Shown here: one piece after another, positions 9,607-62,234 of the stretch | How the letters are laid out: each line of letters opens with the position of its first letter | Numbering within the stretch: the stretch's first letter is position 1 | Assembly (NCBI RefSeq): GCF_030388665.1 | Contig: NZ_CP128846.1 | Span: forward strand, 2,356,001 to 2,420,000 | DNA from: Streptomyces flavofungini | GTDB lineage: Bacteria > Actinomycetota > Actinomycetes > Streptomycetales > Streptomycetaceae | Length of the DNA: 64,000 nt | Direction: 5' to 3' | Notes under the pieces: generated by a model | The model's database searches: none | What the model was told of the DNA's origin: nothing | Seen by the model: the letters and a program-made list of their open reading frames with translations, nothing else | Translations under genes and position numbers: made by a program

Positions 9607-10461
9607 CTACTGCGGCTCCGGCCCTGTCGCCACCGGCCGCGCCGGGTCCGAAGACCACTCCGACCACGAGCCGACGTACAGCGTCGCCGGGATGCCCGCC
9701 ACCGCGAGGGCGAGGACCTCGTGGGCCCCGGAGACGCCCGAGCCGCAGTACACGCCGACCTCCGAAGCGTCGGACGCCCCCAGGGACTTGAAGCGGGCCG
9801 CGAGTTCGTCGGCGGGGCGGAAGCGGCCGTCCGCCGCGACGTTCTCGGTGGTGGGCGCCGAGACCGCGCCGGGGATGTGGCCGCCGACGCGGTCGATGGG
9901 CTCGACGTCGCCGCGGTAGCGCTCCGCGGCACGGGCGTCCAGGAGCAGACCCGAGCGGGCCAGCGCCGCCGCGCCGTCCGCGTCGACGCGGCCCACGGAC
10001 TCCGGGACCGGCGTGAACGTGCCCGCCACCGACGCGGTCACCTCCCCGGACTCCAGCTCCCCCGTCCACGCGGCCAGCCCGCCGTCCAGGACCCGCACCG
10101 ACGGATGCCCCGCCCAGCGCAGCAGCCACCAGGCGCGCGCGGCGGCCCAGCCCTGCCCGCCGTCGTACACGACGACCGGCCGGTCCGCCGAGACCCCGGC
10201 CGCCCGCATGACCGGGCCGAAGTGCTCGACATCCGGAAGGGGATGCCTGCCCCCGGCGCCCGCCGGGCCCGCGAGGTCCGCGTCGAGGTCGACGAAGACC
10301 GCCCCGGGGATGTGCCCGGCCGCATGCTCGGCCCGCCCGTCGAAGGGCGGCTCGCCCGCCGCCTTGGCCACGCTCAGCTGCCAACGGATGTCGAGCAGCA
10401 CTGGCGGATTCTCGCTCGCCAAGTCGCTCGCGAGTTCGGATGCGGAGATGATGGCATTCAT
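9607..10461 (-). CDS. sseA: Thiosulfate/3-mercaptopyruvate sulfurtransferase
   Basis: A 284-aa tandem-rhodanese enzyme that transfers sulfane sulfur to cyanide or thiols. The first rhodanese domain (about 5-140) lacks a catalytic cysteine and the second (about 165-280) carries C239 in VYCGSGVSGAHEVLAL. The loop CGSGVS resembles the CGSGVT loop of mercaptopyruvate sulfurtransferases more than the CRKGVT loop of classical thiosulfate enzymes, so 3-mercaptopyruvate is the likelier donor. The domain-linking motif GHIPGAV appears twice, as expected. Start ATG 10461 (MNAIISASEL) has AAGGA eight bases upstream; the upstream extension is non-coding. It converges on sepH. Confidence 0.92.
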   Translation of the reverse strand: MNAIISASELASDLASENPPVLLDIRWQLSVAKAAGEPPFDGRAEHAAGHIPGAVFVDLDADLAGPAGAGGRHPLPDVEHFGPVMRAAGVSADRPVVVYDGGQGWAAARAWWLLRWAGHPSVRVLDGGLAAWTGELESGEVTASVAGTFTPVPESVGRVDADGAAALARSGLLLDARAAERYRGDVEPIDRVGGHIPGAVSAPTTENVAADGRFRPADELAARFKSLGASDASEVGVYCGSGVSGAHEVLALAVAGIPATLYVGSWSEWSSDPARPVATGPEPQ

Positions 10462-10892
10462 GGGCCCCATCCTTGCGCACAGGGTGGCCGCCGCGCTCAG
10501 CTCCGGATACCATCCTCGGCCGGACCACGCCCGGACACGCGGCGTACGGAAACGAGCACGCCGCGTACCGCAGATGGACACAACCCTGCAATCGCGCGTT
10601 AACGGATGAGAAATGGCAAATCGGGCATCCTCCGCGGGGGAGCCCGCGAGCGCGGCGCGGCCGGGGGGGCGCCGGGCTACAGGTGATGCGAGCATCTGCA
10701 CGGGCGGGCATACGCGCGGCGAGAGCACGCGCGTTCGAACAGCGGACCGAAGCGGAATCGAAGCGGAGTGGCAACGGCTGGGCGACGAGGATGACAGCTG
10801 ACAGACAACAGATGCCAGAACTTGAACTCTGTTAGTTGTGGTCCGTCGTCACCCGGCTGTCGAAGTCACGAGGGCCCGAGGAGAGAGTGACG
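10462..10892. other. Divergent intergenic region, no gene seen
   Basis: 431 bases between the divergent sulfurtransferase and VOC genes. Reading frames here lack ribosome binding sites and normal third-position bias. A GTTAACGG sequence and a somewhat AT-richer patch near 10595-10625 may be promoter DNA; I see no RNA fold or dyad that stands out. Confidence 0.4.
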
Positions 10893-35222: not shown

Positions 35223-36815
35223 CTACGCGGCGCCCGCTCCGGTCAGTGAGCGCACTTCCGTCTCCGCGTGCTTGGCCTCGTCCGCCGGATCCGACGAGGT
35301 GACCGTGCCGAACCAGCCCGCGAGGAAGCCCAACGGGATCGACACGAGTCCGGGGTTCTCCAACGGGAAGTACTGGAAGTCCACCCCGGGGAAGAGGGAG
35401 TTCGCGCTCCCGGACACCACGGGCGACAACACCACGAGCACCAGCGCGGGCAGCAGCCCGCCGTAGACGGACCAGACGGCGCCCCGCGTGGTGAACTGCC
35501 GCCAGAACAGTGAGTAGAGCAGCACCGGCAGGTTCGCGGACGCAGCGACCGCGAAGGCGAGTCCGACCAGGAACGCGACGTTGAGGTCGCGGGCGACCAG
35601 ACCGAGGCCGATCGCGACCGCGCCGATCCCCACCGACGCGACCCGCGCCACCGCGACCTCGCTGTGCGGCTTGGCGTTCTTGCGCCGCAGCGAGGCATAG
35701 AGGTCATGAGCCACGGAAGCCGAGGAGGCGAGCGTGATCCCGGCGACCACGGCGAGGATCGTGGCGAACGCGACGGCGGCCACGACCGCGAAAAGAACCG
35801 TCCCGCCCGTGGAATCCGCACCGCCGCCCAGATCGAGCGCGAGCAGCGGCACCGCGGTGTTCCCCGCCGCGTTCGAGCCGCGCACCGCGTCGGTCCCGAC
35901 GACCGCCGCCGCACCGAAACCGAGCACGATCGTCATCAGGTAGAAGCTGCCGATGAGACCGATGGACCAGACGACCGACCGCCGGGCGGCCCTCGCGGTC
36001 GGCACGGTGTAGAAGCGCGACAGGATGTGCGGCAGTCCGGCGGTGCCGAGCACCAGCGCGAGACCGAGGCTGATGAAGTCGAACCGTGAGGTCCAGTCCC
36101 CGCCGTACTTCAGCCCGGGCGCCAGGAACTGTCCGCCGTGCCCACTGCGGTCGGCGGCCGTCCGCAGCAACTGGTCGAAATCGCCGTGGAAGCGCATCAG
36201 GACGAGCACGGTCAGCGCGATCGCCCCGGCCATCAGCAGGACCGCCTTGACGATCTGGATCCACGTGGTGGCCCGCATCCCTCCCATCGACACATAGATG
36301 ACCATGAGCGCGCCGACGCCGATCACCGTCCAGGTCTGCGCCGCATCGCTCGTCCCGCCCAGCAGCAGCGCAACCAGTGAGCCCGCCCCCACCATCTGCG
36401 CCACCAGATAGAGAACGGACACGGTCACCGAGGAAGTTCCCGCGGCGATCCGCACCGGACGCTCCCGCATCCGCGCCGCCACCACGTCGGCGAGCGTGAA
36501 CCGCCCGCAGTTGCGCACCAGTTCGGCCACCAGGAACAGCACGACGAGCCAGGCCACCAGAAAGCCCACCGAGTACAGCAGCCCGTCGTAGCCGTAGAGC
36601 GCGATGAGCCCGGAGATACCGAGGAACGAGGCCGCCGACATGTAGTCGCCCGCGATGGCAAAACCATTCTCCATGGGCGAGAACAACCGTCCGCCCGCGT
36701 AGAACTCCTCCGCGGAGCCGTGCCGGTTGCGGCTCACATACGTCGTGATCCCCAGCGTGACCGCGACGAACGCCCCGAACAGGACCAGCGCCAGCGTCTG
36801 GTGATCCCCCGTCAC
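35223..36815 (-). CDS. Sodium:solute symporter (ActP/MctC-like monocarboxylate transporter)
   Basis: The 530-aa protein has about 13 transmembrane helices and SSS-family signatures: EEFYAGGRLFSPMENGFAIAGDYMSAASFLGISG near the N-terminus, GGMRATTWIQIVKAVLL in the middle and GTAGLPHILSRFYTV. These are closest to acetate, pyruvate or propionate permeases (ActP, MctC). It starts at GTG 36815, overlapping the stop of the DUF485 gene (GTGA), so both are made together; DUF485 plus ActP pairs are common. It converges with the DcuR-type regulator gene with a four-base gap. The neighbouring citrate-synthase-like enzymes fit acetate or pyruvate use. Confidence 0.9.
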   Translation of the reverse strand: MTGDHQTLALVLFGAFVAVTLGITTYVSRNRHGSAEEFYAGGRLFSPMENGFAIAGDYMSAASFLGISGLIALYGYDGLLYSVGFLVAWLVVLFLVAELVRNCGRFTLADVVAARMRERPVRIAAGTSSVTVSVLYLVAQMVGAGSLVALLLGGTSDAAQTWTVIGVGALMVIYVSMGGMRATTWIQIVKAVLLMAGAIALTVLVLMRFHGDFDQLLRTAADRSGHGGQFLAPGLKYGGDWTSRFDFISLGLALVLGTAGLPHILSRFYTVPTARAARRSVVWSIGLIGSFYLMTIVLGFGAAAVVGTDAVRGSNAAGNTAVPLLALDLGGGADSTGGTVLFAVVAAVAFATILAVVAGITLASSASVAHDLYASLRRKNAKPHSEVAVARVASVGIGAVAIGLGLVARDLNVAFLVGLAFAVAASANLPVLLYSLFWRQFTTRGAVWSVYGGLLPALVLVVLSPVVSGSANSLFPGVDFQYFPLENPGLVSIPLGFLAGWFGTVTSSDPADEAKHAETEVRSLTGAGAA

Positions 36816-55045: not shown

Positions 55046-57232
55046 ATGAGCAACGAAGACCTGCGCACGGCGGCCGACGCCGTCCTCGCCCGCCTCGTCG
55101 GCGGCCCCTCCCCCGATTCCGGCGAGGCCCCGCCGGACGGCCCCCGGCTGCGCGAGGACCAGTGGCGCGCGATCGAGGCGCTGGTCGCCGAGAAGCGCCG
55201 GGCGCTCGTCGTGCAGCGGACGGGCTGGGGCAAGTCCGCCGTGTACTTCGTCGCGACGGCGCTGCTGCGGGAGCAGGGCAGCGGCCCCACCGTGATCGTG
55301 TCTCCGCTGCTCGCGCTCATGCGGAACCAGGTGGAGTCGGCCGAGCGCGCCGGCATCCGCGCCCGCACGATCAACTCGTCCAACACGGAGGAGTGGGACA
55401 CCATCCAGGCCGAGGTGGCGGCGGGCGAGGTGGACGTCCTGCTGGTGAGCCCGGAGCGGCTCAACAACCCGGACTTCCGCGATCAGGTCCTGCCGAAGCT
55501 GGCCGCGGCGACGGGCCTGCTCGTGGTCGACGAGGCCCACTGCATCTCGGACTGGGGGCACGACTTCCGCCCCGATTACCGCAGGCTGCGCACCATGCTC
55601 GCCGACCTCCCGCCCGGCGTCCCGGTCCTGGCCACGACGGCGACGGCCAACGCCCGCGTGACAGCCGATGTCGCCGACCAGCTGGGCACCGGCGGCGGGT
55701 CGGACGCCCTCGTCCTGCGCGGCCCGCTCGACCGGGAGAGCCTGAGCCTCGCCGTGCTCCAACTGCCGAACGCGGCACACCGGCTGGCCTGGCTGGCCGA
55801 CCACCTCGACGAGTTGCCGGGCTCCGGGATCATCTACACCCTCACAGTGGCCGCGGCCGAGGAAGTGACGGCGTACCTGCGCCATCGCGGGCACACCGTC
55901 GCCTCGTACACGGGCAAGACGGAGAACGCGGACCGGCAGCAGGCCGAGGAGGACCTGCTCGCCAACCGGGTCAAGGCCCTCGTCGCCACCTCCGCGCTGG
56001 GGATGGGCTTCGACAAGCCGGACCTGGGCTTCGTCGTCCACCTCGGCTCGCCTTCGTCTCCGATCGCCTACTACCAGCAAGTGGGCCGAGCGGGTCGCGG
56101 CGTCGCCCACGCGGAAGTCCTGCTGCTGCCAGGCAAGGAGGACACGGCGATCTGGAACTACTTCGCCTCGCTCGCCTTCCCGCCCGAGGAGCAGGTGCGG
56201 CGCACCCTGGACGTGCTGGCGCAAGCAGACCGGCCCATGTCACTTCCGGCCCTTGAGCCTCTCGTCGAACTGCGCAGGTCACGCCTCGAGACGATGCTCA
56301 AGGTCCTCGACGTCGACGGCGCGGTCCGGCGTGTCCAGGGAGGCTGGATCTCCACGGGCAGGCCGTGGACGTACGACACCGAGCGCTACGCCTGGGTGGC
56401 AAAGCAGCGGCAGGCGGAGCAGCAGGCCATGCGGGAGTACGCGATGACGACCGGCTGCCGCATGGAGTTCCTGCGGCGCCAGCTCGACGACGAAGAAGCC
56501 GCGCCGTGCGGGCGCTGCGACAACTGCGCGGGCGGGCGGTTCAACGACAACGTCTCGTCCGCGGCGCTGGAGACGGCACGCGGTGAGCTAGCCCGCCCGG
56601 GTGTCGAAGTGGAGCCGAGGAAGATGTGGCCCACGGGCCTGGCAGCCGTGGGCATGACGTTGAAGGGACGCATCCCGGCCGGTGAACTGGCTGCTCCGGG
56701 GCGGGCCCTGGGCCGGCTCTCGGACATCGGCTGGGGCAACCGGCTGCGGCCGATGCTCGCGCCCCAGGCTCCGGACGGGCCAGTTCCGGACGATGTGTCG
56801 AAGGCTGTCGTGGAAGTCCTGGCCGCCTGGGCGAAGGGGCCGGGCGGCTGGGCCTCGGGGAGCTCCGACGCGGGGCCGCGCCCGGTGGGCGTGGTGACCA
56901 TGGCCTCGCGCTCCAAGCCGCAGCTGATCCAGTCCCTGGGCGCGCGGATCGCGGAGATCGGGCGACTTCCGCTGCTCGGCTCAATGGAGTACGCCGACGG
57001 GACCGGGACCGCACACGTGCCGAGGAGCAACAGCGCTCAGCGGCTGCGAGCCCTGGACGGCACGCTGACCGTGCCGCCCTCGCTGGCCGCGGCCCTCCAA
57101 GAGGCGGACGGCCCCGTGCTCCTGGTGGACGACTCGACGGAGACCGGCTGGACGCTCGCTGTCGGGGCGCGCATGCTGCGGCAGGCCGGAGCCAAGGGGG
57201 TGTTGCCGCTGGTCCTGGCTGTGCAGGGGTGA
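55046..57232 (+). CDS. RecQ-family helicase with C-terminal phosphoribosyltransferase-like domain
   Basis: A 728-aa SF2 DNA helicase. Motif I is [11 protein letters not shown], motif [24 protein letters not shown] (a RecQ hallmark), motif III ATTATAN, motifs [22 protein letters not shown] and QQVGRAGRG. The RecQ zinc site follows with cysteines in [13 protein letters not shown] and APCGRCDNC, then a winged-helix-like region. In place of an HRDC domain, the last 110 residues ([21 protein letters not shown] to the end) resemble a phosphoribosyltransferase: [11 protein letters not shown] and the PRPP-type loop [22 protein letters not shown]. That domain is reminiscent of ComF. ATG 55046 is chosen over an upstream TTG. 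Confidence 0.88.
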
Positions 57233-57444
57233 ATCGGGCTTGGGCGAGGGACGCTCTGGGCAGGGATATGCGCGACGTATCACCGAATACAGGGCGACGG
57301 CTTCAATTGCTCGTTGCCGCAAGCCAGTACGACGGGAAGAATTGGAAGCGCTCCCGCGCGGCTCCCGTGGTCCAGGAGGCCTCTGCCGCGGTGCGCCCCA
57401 ATCCGACGCCGCCCTCAGCAGGGCGTGTAGCCGAAGGGAGGATC

Positions 57445-58080
57445 GTGACCTTCGGATTCACTCCGTCCACAGCGGCATCGACGTCGGATTCATCGGCCGC
57501 CGCCGCGATACCCGATCCCGCTCTGTCGCCCACCCGCCTCCTCGAGCCCGCCGAGTGGTCGGCCGCCGAGATCCCGCTGCTGCGGAACCCTCGCGAGGTC
57601 GTCAGCGGACTGCACGCCCGGCACCTGCCCACTCCGGCCACGGCGGTCGTCGCCGTCCTCGACCAGGAGGAGCGGGTCAGGGCGTCCGCGTCCTTCGCGA
57701 GACGGTCGAGTGTGGCCGACGGCTGGGTGTTCCGCAACGCCCTGCTCGCGCAGTTGCGCCGGGTCATCCCGCACGATCTGCGCCGCCGTACCCCGGTGCG
57801 TACGGCCGTGTTGCTCTACTGCAGGGACGGGGACGGGCTATGGACGCAGGAGGACGGCGCGTGGATGTGGGGCCTGCGAGACGCGTGCACGCTGCACGGG
57901 CTGCGCTGCGGGGCGTACATCACGCTGACCCGGGAGGGCTGGCAGGTGCTCGGCGAGGGCCGCGCGGGCCGTCGGCCGACCGCTGGTTCGCGTCCTGAGG
58001 ACCTTGCCGAGGCCGAGACGCCTCCGCCGCGCATGGGTGGGGCGCCATCGGAGTTGTTACGTCGCGTCGCCGCTCGCTGA
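57445..58080 (+). CDS. Conserved hypothetical protein with a TTA codon
   Basis: A 211-aa soluble protein starting at GTG 57445 behind AGGGAGG. The conserved core runs from PARLLEPAEWSAAEIPLLRNPREVV-like sequence through HLPTPATAVVAVLDQEERVRASASFARRS to RTAVLLYCRDGDGLWTQEDGAWMWGLRDACTLHGLRCGAYITLTREGW. Three tryptophans and a short Cys motif are notable. I do not recognise the family. Codon 205 is TTA (58057-58059), which in Streptomyces makes expression depend on the bldA tRNA. It follows the RecQ gene after 212 bases in the same direction, so it might be part of the same developmental unit, which is inference. Confidence 0.75.
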   Translation: MTFGFTPSTAASTSDSSAAAAIPDPALSPTRLLEPAEWSAAEIPLLRNPREVVSGLHARHLPTPATAVVAVLDQEERVRASASFARRSSVADGWVFRNALLAQLRRVIPHDLRRRTPVRTAVLLYCRDGDGLWTQEDGAWMWGLRDACTLHGLRCGAYITLTREGWQVLGEGRAGRRPTAGSRPEDLAEAETPPPRMGGAPSELLRRVAAR

Positions 58081-58379: not shown

Positions 58380-59051
58380 TCAGACGCCCGCACCCAGCAT
58401 CGCGTTGATCCGCTGCGGGTCGCCGCAGACGACCAGCAGGGTTCCGGCCCGGGTGAGCGCCGTCGGCAGGGCCGCGACGGCCGCTTCTTCGCTGCCGCCG
58501 TTCAGGGCCACGACGACCACGGGACGAGCCGCGGCACGGGCCAGGACGGCGGCGTCGGCGTAGAAGACGTCGTCGCCCGCATCGTGCTGAGCCCAGTAGG
58601 CGTCTTCGCCGAAGGACAGCTCGTGCGTCGCCCACGGGTGCGGTTCGCCGGTGGTGATCACCAGGACGTCACCCGGGGCGCGGCCCGAGTCGAGCAGCAG
58701 GTCGACGGCTTCCTCGGCAGCGTCCAGCGCACCCTCGACAGAGGCCGGGATCAGCTGAATCTGCGGGAGCGCCGCGGCGGTGTCGACGCCGGAGGCTTCG
58801 GGGGCAGCCGGAGCTGTGGGCTCCGGCGTGGGGGCCAGGGCCGTGGGCCCGGGCTTGGCGGCCGGTTCGCGCGTCGCGCGCTGCGCGGGCGGCGTCGGCC
58901 GTGCGGGACCCGGACGTCCGGGCCGCGGCGGCGCCGCGGGACGCGGGCCGGGTACGGGGCGGGGGGTCGGCGCGTTACGGCTGTTGGCCGGCGTGGCGCG
59001 GGGACCCTGGGCACTCTCGTGAATCTGAGGCTCCTCGGGAATGAGAGGCAT
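58380..59051 (-). CDS. Conserved hypothetical protein with disordered N-terminus
   Basis: The 223-aa protein has a Pro/Arg/Ala-rich disordered first half (residues 1-95) and a compact C-terminal domain (about 105-223) with GALDAAEEAVDLLLDSGRAPGDVLVITTGEPHPWATHELSFGEDAYWAQ, RPVVVVALNGGSEEAAVAALPTALTRAGTLLVVCGDP in order. The alternation of strands and helices (VLVITTG, VVVVALNGG, TLLVVCGD) resembles the C-terminal part of UvrD-like helicases but no Walker motif is present, so it is not a helicase. It may be a remnant or regulator derived from such a domain. The ATG at 59051 gives MPLIPEEPQIHESAQGP, and there is no ribosome binding site, so it may be leaderless. Confidence 0.75.
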   Translation of the reverse strand: MPLIPEEPQIHESAQGPRATPANSRNAPTPRPVPGPRPAAPPRPGRPGPARPTPPAQRATREPAAKPGPTALAPTPEPTAPAAPEASGVDTAAALPQIQLIPASVEGALDAAEEAVDLLLDSGRAPGDVLVITTGEPHPWATHELSFGEDAYWAQHDAGDDVFYADAAVLARAAARPVVVVALNGGSEEAAVAALPTALTRAGTLLVVCGDPQRINAMLGAGV

Positions 59052-59128
59052 GCATTGTTGTCTATCAAACGCCGACGCGACACGCGTCGGCGGGTGGCAC
59101 ATGAGTGCGACCGGAACTGCGGAAAACA

Positions 59129-59830
59129 TCAGAAGTCAAAGCCGAGCTGGCCCTCGATTTCCGGAACGTTTCCCTCCGCCCAGCTGCGGGCTTTCTTGAG
59201 ATGCCGCCACTGGGGCAGCGCATCAAGATACGCCCACGTAAGCCGGTGGTAGGGGGTGGGCCCCCGTTCCGCCAGCGCGGCCTTGTGCACCGGCGACGGA
59301 TAACCGGCGTTGGCCGCAAAACCGAAGTCTGCATGTTCGATGCCCAGTTCGGCCATCATTTTGTCGCGCCGAACCTTGGCGATCACCGACGCGGCGGCGA
59401 CGGCGACGCAGGACTGATCGCCCTTGATGACCGTACGGACCCGCCACGGCGCCCCGAGGTAGTCGTGCTTCCCGTCGAGAATGACCGCCTCCGGACGGAC
59501 CGGCAGGGCCTCCAGGGCACGGACCGCGGCCAGCCGCAGCGCCGCCGTCATGCCCAGGTCGTCGATCTCCTCGTGCGAGGCATGACCGAGAGCGTGTGAC
59601 GTGACCCAGCCCTCCAGCTCCTCGGCGAGCTCGGCACGCCGCTTGGGGCTGATCAACTTGGAGTCGGTGAGCCCTGCGGGTGGCCTGCGCAGTCCCGTCA
59701 CCGCCGCACAGACGGTGACCGGTCCCGCCCACGCCCCGCGTCCGACTTCGTCGACACCGGCGATGATCTTCGCTCCGGTGGTGGCGCGCAGGGAGCGCTC
59801 GACGGTGTGGGTGGGTGCTTCGTACGGCAT
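59129..59830 (-). CDS. rnhB: Ribonuclease HII
   Basis: The 233-aa enzyme cuts RNA in RNA-DNA hybrids and removes single ribonucleotides from DNA. It carries the first catalytic pair D27-E28 in [14 protein letters not shown], the third acidic residue D119 in [11 protein letters not shown], and the conserved [19 protein letters not shown] block with its last carboxylate. The GRGAWAGP stretch is the GRG motif that reads the 2'-OH junction. ATG 59830 gives the usual N-terminus [11 protein letters not shown]; the upstream frame extension is not conserved-looking. Ribosome binding is weak. It is followed downstream on the same strand by the hypothetical gene, 77 bases away. Confidence 0.94.
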
Positions 59831-59936: not shown

Positions 59937-60551
59937 CTACACACGCAACAGCGGCACCATGACCTGATCGATCAGGCTGATGAATTCCTCGTCCGTCCAT
60001 TCGCTCCCGCACACCTTGGAGCGATACATCATCATCGCTGGAATCACATCGCAGACGAACGGGTCCATCGCTCCGGAACGCACTTCCCCGCGCTCCATTC
60101 CACGCCGCATGACCTCTCTGATGAGTTCCACACTCGGTCCGATGACACCCTCGACGATCACCGTATGGAAACGCTCCGCAGTTGCCGTGTCGCACTCGTG
60201 AAGAACGGCCATGAGGGCATAGCCGGGGCGTGACGTCATGGCCGCACGCATCTGGCGACACAGTTGCAGCAGGTCCTCACGAACACTTCCACAGTCCGGA
60301 ACTCCCGCCAGGTCCGGCAGCCCGGCCTGCAGCGCGTCGACAACGAGGTCCTCCTTGGACGGCCAGCGCCGGTACACCGCGGCCTTGCCCGTCTGGGCAC
60401 CCGCAGCGACCCCCTCCATCGTCAGCCCGCTCCAACCGACCGTACTGAGCTGCTCCAGCGCGGACTCGAGAATCGCGCGCTCCAGCACGGGGCCCCGGCG
60501 GCGCGAGGAGACCGCCTGCGCGGAGGCAGGAGTCCAACGCGAAGTAACCAT
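59937..60551 (-). CDS. TetR-family repressor of the adjacent MFS gene
   Basis: A 204-aa regulator with an N-terminal TetR helix-turn-helix (about 22-72; [52 protein letters not shown] is in the family pattern) and a helical C-terminal ligand domain (about 80-200) starting with [24 protein letters not shown] 60551 has GGAG eight bases upstream. The gene is divergent from a 14-TM MFS exporter, and two perfect 20-bp palindromes lie in the gap, the classical arrangement for a drug-responsive repressor controlling itself and the exporter. The ligand is probably a substrate of the exporter. Confidence 0.92.
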
Positions 60552-60585
60552 CTACACATCTCCGTTGAGCAATCAAGGCAGATCC

Positions 60586-60605
60586 AGTGAACGCTTGCGT
60601 TCACT
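60586..60605. promoter_or_regulatory. TetR operator 1 (perfect 9-2-9 palindrome)
   Basis: AGTGAACGCTTGCGTTCACT, a perfect inverted repeat with a two-base spacer, 34 bases upstream of the TetR gene start. It shares the AGTGAACG half-site with operator 2. Confidence 0.92.
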
Positions 60606-60634
60606 GTCAGGGTTTCACTACCGTAGGCCGCGAC

Positions 60635-60654
60635 AGTGAACGTCTACGTTCACT
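60635..60654. promoter_or_regulatory. TetR operator 2 (perfect 9-2-9 palindrome)
   Basis: AGTGAACGTCTACGTTCACT, a perfect inverted repeat 23 bases upstream of the MFS GTG and centred 49 bp from operator 1. Identical AGTGAACG half-sites in both show that one protein binds both, and the spacing leaves room for divergent promoters between them. Confidence 0.92.
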
Positions 60655-60677
60655 AACGCACTTGTGGGGGACTCATA

Positions 60678-62234
60678 GTGACAACCTCTCAGTTAAGTAA
60701 AGATCAGAAGCCAGGCGCGGCCCGACGAGAAGGCCGACCCGGTATAGCGCTCACCATCATCGCCGCCTGCCAACTCATGGTGGTCCTGGACGCGACGATT
60801 GTGAACATCGCGCTCCCGCACATTCAGGACGCGCTCAAGTTCTCCACGACAGACCTCACTTGGGTCGTGAGTGCGTACACCCTCACCTTCGGCGGCCTGC
60901 TGCTTCTCGGTGGCCGCGCCGGTGACATCCTCGGTCGCCGCCGCGTCTTCATGACCGGCATCCTGCTCTTCACGCTCGCCTCGCTGCTCGGCGGATTCGC
61001 CCAGGAACCCTGGCAGTTGCTGGCGGCCCGGGCCCTGCAGGGCGTCGGTGGCGCGATCGCGTCGCCCACCTCGCTCGCGTTGATCACTACGACGTTCCCC
61101 GAGGGGCCCGAACGGAATCGCGCGTTCGGCGTCTTCGCAGCCGTCTCCGCCGGTGGCGGCGCGATCGGTCTACTGGCGGGCGGGATGCTCACCGAGTGGC
61201 TGGACTGGCGCTGGGTGCTGTTCGTGAACGTGCCCATCGGCGTGCTGATCGCCTTCCTCACGCCGCTCTACATCAGTGAGTCCGAGCGTCATCCCGGCCG
61301 CTTCGACTTCGTGGGCGCGCTGACCTCGACCGCCGGTATGGCCGCGCTCGTCTACGGCTTCATCCGGGCGTCCGAGGACGGCTGGCGCGACGGTCTGACC
61401 CTGGGGTCGTTCGGCGCGGCGGTCGTGCTGCTCGCCGCCTTCGTCCTGATCGAGAGCCGGGCGAAGGAACCGATCACACCGCTGAAGATGTTCGCCGACC
61501 GCAACCGGTCGGGCACCTATGTGATCATGCTCAGCCTGGCTGCCGCCATGTTCGGCATGTTCTTCTTCATCGTCCTCTTCGTGCAGAACGTGTTGAACTA
61601 CACCCCCATCGAAGCCGGTCTCGCCTTCCTCCCGGTGACGGTGGCGATCGTGATCGGTGCGGGTCTGTCGCAGCGGTTCCTGCCGGTTCTCGGACCCAAG
61701 CCGTTCATGGTGACCGGCTCCGCCATCGTCGCCCTCGGTCTCGGATGGCAGACGTTCATCACTCCGGACAGCTCGTACGTCAGCGGGGTCCTCGGGCCGA
61801 TGGTCCTGTTCGGCTTCGGCATGGGGCTGAACTTCGTGACGCTGACGCTGACCGCGGTGTCGGGCGTCGCCGTGCACGAGGCGGGAGCCGCATCCGGGCT
61901 GCTCAACGCGACCCAGCAGGTGGGCGGTTCGCTGGGCCTGTCCATCCTGACGACGGTCTTCGGCACGGCGAGCCGGGACGAGGCCAAGGAGCAGATCCCG
62001 GACTTCATGGCGAAGGCCTCCCCGGAGCAGAAGGCCGAGTTCGCCAAATCGGGAGAGCTTCCCGCTCCCTGGGGCCACGAGGTGCTGTCCACCGGCATCT
62101 CCACGGCCTTCCTGCCGGCCGTCGGCATGGCCGTACTGGCCCTGATCACGGCCCTGCTCGTGATCCGAGTCCGCAAGAGCGACCTGGACGCCCTCTCCGG
62201 TACGGCGAGCGCGGCAGGTCCAGCGGGGGGCTGA
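60678..62234 (+). CDS. MFS DHA2-family multidrug exporter (14 TM) with TTA codon 6
   Basis: A 518-aa drug/proton antiporter of the EmrB/QacA class with 14 transmembrane helices. Helix 1 carries ACQLMVVLDATIVNIALPHIQ (motif D1 of this family), the 2-3 loop GGRAGDILGRRRVFM is MFS motif A, and motif C (GAIGLLAGGMLTEWLDWRWVLFVNVPIG) follows in helix 5. GTG 60678 lies behind GGGGG. The sixth codon is TTA (60693-60695), which in Streptomyces ties translation to the bldA tRNA and thus to development. Its neighbour is the divergent TetR repressor with paired operators; exporter of a self-made or external antibiotic is likely. Confidence 0.93.
   Translation: MTTSQLSKDQKPGAARREGRPGIALTIIAACQLMVVLDATIVNIALPHIQDALKFSTTDLTWVVSAYTLTFGGLLLLGGRAGDILGRRRVFMTGILLFTLASLLGGFAQEPWQLLAARALQGVGGAIASPTSLALITTTFPEGPERNRAFGVFAAVSAGGGAIGLLAGGMLTEWLDWRWVLFVNVPIGVLIAFLTPLYISESERHPGRFDFVGALTSTAGMAALVYGFIRASEDGWRDGLTLGSFGAAVVLLAAFVLIESRAKEPITPLKMFADRNRSGTYVIMLSLAAAMFGMFFFIVLFVQNVLNYTPIEAGLAFLPVTVAIVIGAGLSQRFLPVLGPKPFMVTGSAIVALGLGWQTFITPDSSYVSGVLGPMVLFGFGMGLNFVTLTLTAVSGVAVHEAGAASGLLNATQQVGGSLGLSILTTVFGTASRDEAKEQIPDFMAKASPEQKAEFAKSGELPAPWGHEVLSTGISTAFLPAVGMAVLALITALLVIRVRKSDLDALSGTASAAGPAGG

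Follow-up and report, generated by a model that had tools for sequence, protein, structure and literature searches.

Within the window, the whole stretch of 64,000 nucleotides analysed here, the genes of a TetR-family regulator and of a DHA2/EmrB-type exporter are read in opposite directions from an intergenic gap of 126 bp, and two operator sites, O1 and O2, lie between them. Judged from sequence comparison, this locus is an ordinary, well-conserved TetR-exporter divergon for which the assignment of the operators is firm. The account that we regard as probable is that, in some lineages only, this divergon also carries a second layer of control through the bldA tRNA, and that this layer is probably leaky.

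59937 to 60551, minus strand: gene of the TetR-family regulator, 204 amino acids, with TetR_N and TetR_C_11 above the Pfam cut-offs
60586 to 60605, no strand: operator O1, AGTGAACGCTTGCGTTCACT, with 10-bp arms at 60585-60594 and 60597-60606
60635 to 60654, no strand: operator O2, AGTGAACGTCTACGTTCACT, with 9-bp arms, adjoining the putative transcription start of the exporter gene
60667 to 60672, plus strand: ribosome-binding site of the exporter gene, GGGGGA, read from the sequence and conserved over 92 loci
60678 to 62234, plus strand: gene of the DHA2/EmrB-type MFS exporter, 518 amino acids, GTG start, matching TIGR00711 and MFS_1

Two predicted operators and their probable regulator

O1 and O2 share the form AGTGAACG-N4-CGTTCACT with an identical half-site, AGTGAACG, and are spaced 49 bp from start to start, with 29 bp intervening. 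The earlier note had described them as two perfect 20-bp palindromes with identical half-sites, 49 bp apart, between the TetR and MFS genes. The half-sites, the distance, the location and the matching arms all stand, but each site has a 2-bp centre that is not palindromic (TT in O1, CT in O2), and the word perfect, a small overstatement, has been dropped. The form of the sites is in itself not rare, since the window holds six inverted repeats of the 8-N4-8 type with perfect arms; what is unusual is that one half-site is shared and repeated. When up to three mismatches were allowed, three operator matches were found in the window, where shuffles of the window gave 0.22 as the expectation, and these were O1 and O2, both exact, and one site with three mismatches at 36410. 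From base composition, exact sites would be expected about 3e-6 times per 64 kb and 0.0004 times per 9.36 Mb. In the organism's own genome, O1 and O2 are the only exact occurrences of GTGAACGN4CGTTCAC. At up to two mismatches the same genome yields 74 operator matches, compared with 12 for a reversed control pattern, and both of its one-mismatch sites lie within long, GC3-rich open frames. A larger regulon in this genome was considered and rejected on the exact and one-mismatch sites, there being only two of the former and both of the latter falling within such frames.

The regulator itself is well supported as a member of its family, its TetR_N helix-turn-helix domain scoring 45.2 bits against a Pfam cut-off of 24. 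Its closest counterpart by identity (96%) is from Streptomyces alboflavus among the best 80 of 506 relatives, a set from which the window's own record may have been excluded. Among 101 genomes of the same genus, an orthologue of this TetR is present in 54 at E<=1e-50 and the exact operator in 52. Every genome with the operator also has this TetR (52/52), and the operator is found in none of the 47 genomes without it (Fisher p 7e-27, with the relatedness of the 101 genomes ignored). The two TetR-positive genomes of the 54 that do not have an exact site are G012, in which the sites are weakened (locus L022), and G121. This co-occurrence supports the proposal of the earlier note that the palindromes are TetR operators, and the pairing of O1 and O2 with the adjacent TetR is strongly supported by the comparison of genomes. 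As the link is one of co-occurrence, the palindromes could in principle serve some regulator other than the adjacent TetR, but the restriction of the site to genomes that carry this TetR makes such an assignment exceedingly improbable. In one of the 101 genomes, G094, the exact operator occurs a third time, on a different contig (G094:C24:23802-23821), where it may mark an additional target.

Two loci with an unusually wide gap bear on whether the regulator also controls its own gene. In L067, about 2.3 kb separates the TetR and exporter genes, and a pair of sites adjoins each of them, with two to three mismatches in the pair by the TetR gene; this arrangement fits control of both genes. In L085, where the gap is similarly wide, sites were found beside the exporter only, which argues against such control of the TetR gene in this particular genome. 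The intervening segment of L067 (L067:735-2880, roughly 2 kb between the exporter and TetR genes) contains another frame, resembling a membrane transporter, and a small regulator-like frame, both named by eye. Among more distant relatives, a single site with four mismatches was found in L023 and none in L030, so the operator can be traced within the near family only.

A probable promoter within the intergenic gap

The organization of the gap was compared over orthologous loci, 102 of them initially, of which 92 were retained for the counts given below. Those set aside were L090 and L115, with no exporter match at threshold; L050, L053, L058, L059, L067, L085 and L091, in which the gap was wide or the exporter incomplete or disrupted; and L078, an exact duplicate (near-identical rows may remain). 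Because 80 of the 102 loci are the best 80 of 506 TetR relatives, the set leans to near relatives and is not a fair sample.

The O1-O2 pair is kept in all 92 loci with no more than three mismatches in each site, at a distance of 45-49 bp (48 bp in 65 loci and 49 bp in 19). O1 is exact in 73 of the 92 loci and O2 in 89, with one or two mismatches in the other three. The centres of the two sites behave differently: that of O1 reads N-TTG in 91 of 92 loci, the remaining locus having an unread base, whereas that of O2 takes 34 forms. This difference can be explained by two further elements, which look like the -35 and -10 of the exporter gene.

60595 to 60600, plus strand: candidate exporter -35, TTGCGT, within O1, the same in 90 of 92 loci
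60619 to 60624, plus strand: candidate exporter -10, 18 nt past the -35, TACCGT in 60 of 92 loci and TACGGT in 20

The spacing from TTGCGT to TACCGT or TACGGT is exactly 18 nt in 80 of 92 loci, and the transcription start of the exporter gene would then fall around 60631-60635, bordering O2. The centre of O1 would be fixed, and that of O2 free to vary, because the -35 sits inside O1; on this reading, the fixed O1 centre would represent a promoter constraint within an operator. A generic promoter scan called no promoter here, and the case for the -35 and -10 is one of conservation. A terminator-like site at 60723-60708, read on the minus strand, was the one feature that the same scan reported.

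The locus thus presents a divergent exporter across a short shared intergenic stretch that contains the operators, the arrangement by which a TetR/exporter divergon is recognized, together with putative promoter elements. The way in which it works is probably as follows. First, TetR, as a dimer, would bind O1, over the candidate exporter -35, and O2, near the putative transcription start, and with both sites occupied RNA polymerase would be blocked from starting the exporter gene; the oppositely read TetR gene is probably repressed too. Second, a ligand, for which a compound exported by the pump is the likeliest candidate, would free TetR from the DNA. Finally, in species with TTA at codon 6, full translation would probably need the bldA tRNA as well, and this would be a second, lineage-specific and probably leaky layer which does not define the system.

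The position of O2 also invites a different interpretation, in which it would act in the exporter RNA, as a stem-loop at the 5' end, instead of or besides serving as a TetR site. O2 folds into a stem-loop in 10 of 10 loci folded, but every transcribed palindrome would do so, and the same arms recur in O1, which falls outside the putative transcript. The ten loci also have no common fold that hides the ribosome-binding site, for which reason masking of that site by a leader RNA was rejected, and we consider an RNA role for O2 very improbable. For the divergon, what has been gained is a firm operator assignment, with AGTGAACG-N4-CGTTCACT occurring twice at a distance of 45-49 bp, together with a putative promoter, for a gene pair whose TetR occurs in 54 of 101 genomes, so that the repressor could act as a sensor with which to find the substrate of the pump.

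The exporter scored 248.5 bits against TIGR00711, above the curated cut-off of 230.2, and in the NCBIfam comparison, where 25 of 55 families were shown, all except TIGR00711 stayed below cut-off. Models of named drug pumps (LmrA, TcmA, LfrA, QacA/B and others) were among those whose cut-offs the exporter did not reach. A simple hydropathy scan gave 13 segments, where the family is defined by 14 transmembrane helices. Conservation over the 92 loci extends to the GGGGGA, the start codon and the majority of bases in the early exporter codons. Among the latter (60678-60692), all 89 loci with serine at codon 4 use TCT for it, and 73 of the 87 with threonine at codon 2 use ACA, while codons ending in A or T are rare later in the gene. 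That this conservation might be specific to the exporter was rejected, as the start of the TetR gene is similar. In some species the operators persist beside a pump gene in decay: in L090 and L115 the TetR is kept and the exporter is matched over its first 53 and 38 residues only, respectively, and in L091 the exporter match falls into two pieces in different frames.

TTA at codon 6 and bldA

60693 to 60695, plus strand: TTA, codon 6 of the exporter gene, the sole TTA among its 518 codons

The count over all 518 codons confirmed that the sixth codon is TTA and that the remainder of the gene is TTA-free, as had been claimed from a first inspection. A search of the organism's own genome for a bldA-type gene gave one match, read as tRNA-Leu with anticodon taa (UAA), so that the two features by which bldA-dependent genes are recognized in sequence, an in-frame TTA and a bldA-type tRNA gene, are both present. 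A gene with TTA is by itself not unusual, considering that TTA occurs in three of the 42 genes that a rough caller placed in the window and that the number per genome is reported as 51-505 (mean 177) in 213 Streptomyces species (PMC10327506). The crude gene caller used for the window overlooked two genes, those of TetR and RNase HII; the other two TTA genes it called, again roughly, are at 57229-58080 on the plus strand and 9607-10728 on the minus strand, the TTA being codon 277 in the first and codon 43 in the second.

Conservation of the codon is limited. At the sixth position the 92 loci have TTG in 58 cases, TTA in 14, CTG in 6, CTC in 5, GTG in 3, CTA and ATC in 2 each, and TCA and CAA in 1 each, the CAA case (L049) having one extra codon at the start, so that its sixth codon is shifted. 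Retention of TTA in orthologues, found here in 14 of 92 loci, is not essential for a gene to count as bldA-dependent. Even the window's own clade of ten is mixed, with seven TTA and three TTG. A quick tree from which the first 25 codons had been omitted requires six changes of the TTA label, at least five of them forced by the starred branches, a count that does not tell gain of TTA from loss. The proposal that bldA controls the exporter is therefore favoured by the TTA codon and the tRNA-Leu(taa) gene and weakened by the presence of TTA in only 14 of 92 orthologues and of TTG in three of the ten loci of the same clade.

It is possible, although we incline against it, that the divergon is real and the TTA has no regulatory role, being the by-product of an A/T-rich gene start that drifts between TTG and TTA. 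The predominance of TTG over TTA at codon 6 and the mixture within the clade would both fit such drift. Codons ending in A are common near the start, where for example CAA is used among CAR codons in positions 2-10 (34/187) much as TTA is among TTR codons at position 6 (14/72). Opening of the start region was predicted to be cheaper with TTA than with TTG in eight of eight TTA-bearing loci tried, with no consistent advantage of TTA over CTG. A general bias of streptomycete TTA codons to gene starts (PMC4255298) and the mostly poor conservation of TTA codons (PMC10327506) point in the same direction. Against drift, TTA is absent from all 6196 leucine codons after codon 10 and yet present at codon 6. 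At codon 6, TTA makes up 14 of 72 TTR codons, against 0 of 173 later (Fisher 1.4e-8, relatedness ignored), from which it appears that TTA is shunned in the body of the exporter gene and tolerated or kept at codon 6. CAA, by comparison, is frequent later in the gene as well (210/1381), which makes it a weak yardstick. Moreover, relatives still have TTA although 12-39% of their synonymous codons are not those used in the window, as compared over ten equal-length loci, with three of other length left out.

An early TTA has also been taken for a sharp translational switch, a suggestion of the earlier note that found no support here: UUA translation is leaky in some published cases, and the bias of TTA to early positions is general. 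According to the sources, strains deficient in bldA still express several TTA genes, especially when transcription is raised (PMC4932002), and an adpA reporter in a bldA mutant was 15-fold lower and still detectable (PMC3814723). Of TTA genes, 92% have a single TTA, and nucleotides 13-15 or 16-19 are where some of the 11 well-conserved ones are found (PMC10327506). The exporter is like other Streptomyces bldA genes in having a single TTA early in the gene, and its occurrence in 14 of 92 loci is typical, most TTA codons being described as poorly conserved (PMC10327506). Deletion of bldA affects 147 genes, only two of which contain TTA (PMC2000904). The early bias and the leaky cases together make an early TTA a known pattern and mean that the gate can leak. 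A strict gate, by which the exporter would be made only with mature bldA tRNA, could be argued from the TTA at codon 6 and the bldA-type tRNA gene, and strict cases have been reported, such as MoeE5, which has two TTA codons and was undetected in a bldA mutant (PMC3814723). Nevertheless, most relatives have TTG under the same promoter layout, and with UUA translated leakily in several cases (PMC4932002; PMC3814723) we think a strict gate quite unlikely.

Counted against a divergon with a lineage-specific and probably leaky bldA layer, which we continue to prefer, are the L085 locus, the G012 and G121 genomes, the silence of the generic promoter scan, the 78 of 92 loci in which codon 6 is not TTA, and the skewed sample. 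A bolder view is that the TTA at codon 6 is an old bldA gate, kept by selection and lost to TTG in several lineages, and this we consider unlikely. If it were true, the pump would be fully made in TTA species only when the bldA tRNA is ready and in TTG species at all stages, a natural codon-swap experiment on the timing of a drug pump with the TetR promoter otherwise unchanged. In any event, orthologues that naturally have TTA or TTG behind the same conserved promoter offer a clean route to the effect of an early TTA.

Known systems and neighbouring genes

The closest Streptomyces parallel is ActR/ActA of Streptomyces coelicolor (SCO5082/SCO5083). Its genes belong to the actinorhodin cluster, whereas the neighbours here, by their Pfam matches, are genes for RNase HII and an ADP-ribosylglycohydrolase. 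The actA gene probably also carries a TTA codon, in which case the combination of a TetR regulator with bldA is already known; the open-access literature searched gave no match for actII-ORF2 with TTA, nor for bldA, TTA and MFS in combination. As described in PMC3511530, ActR/ActA resembles the present pair in having a TetR-family gene divergent from an MFS exporter, over an intergenic stretch of 110 bp (126 bp here) that was bound in gel shifts, and differs in its sites, which are three weaker palindromes with CCACCGTT. The present locus shares the layout of TetR/TetA, divergent repressor and efflux genes with two intervening palindromic operators (PMC3511530). Unlike those of TetR/TetA, which are 15 bp, the sites here are 20 bp with another half-site, the pump belongs to the DHA2/EmrB family, and a TTA codon occurs in some lineages. 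When the open-access literature was searched with the operator string, alone or with TetR and Streptomyces, none of the titles listed (40 of 963 and 20 of 40, respectively) was on this regulator.

The closest solved relative of the exporter by sequence is EfpA, a mycobacterial DHA2 efflux protein (E 2e-86, residues 25-428), which is nonetheless distant from it. Adjoining the RNase HII gene there is an open frame (58380-59129, minus strand; 249 aa), with no Pfam match at E<=0.001. The Streptomyces coelicolor counterpart of the TetR/exporter pair may be SCO5811/SCO5810. SCO5811 is entered as a transcriptional regulator in a table line of PMC4848846.
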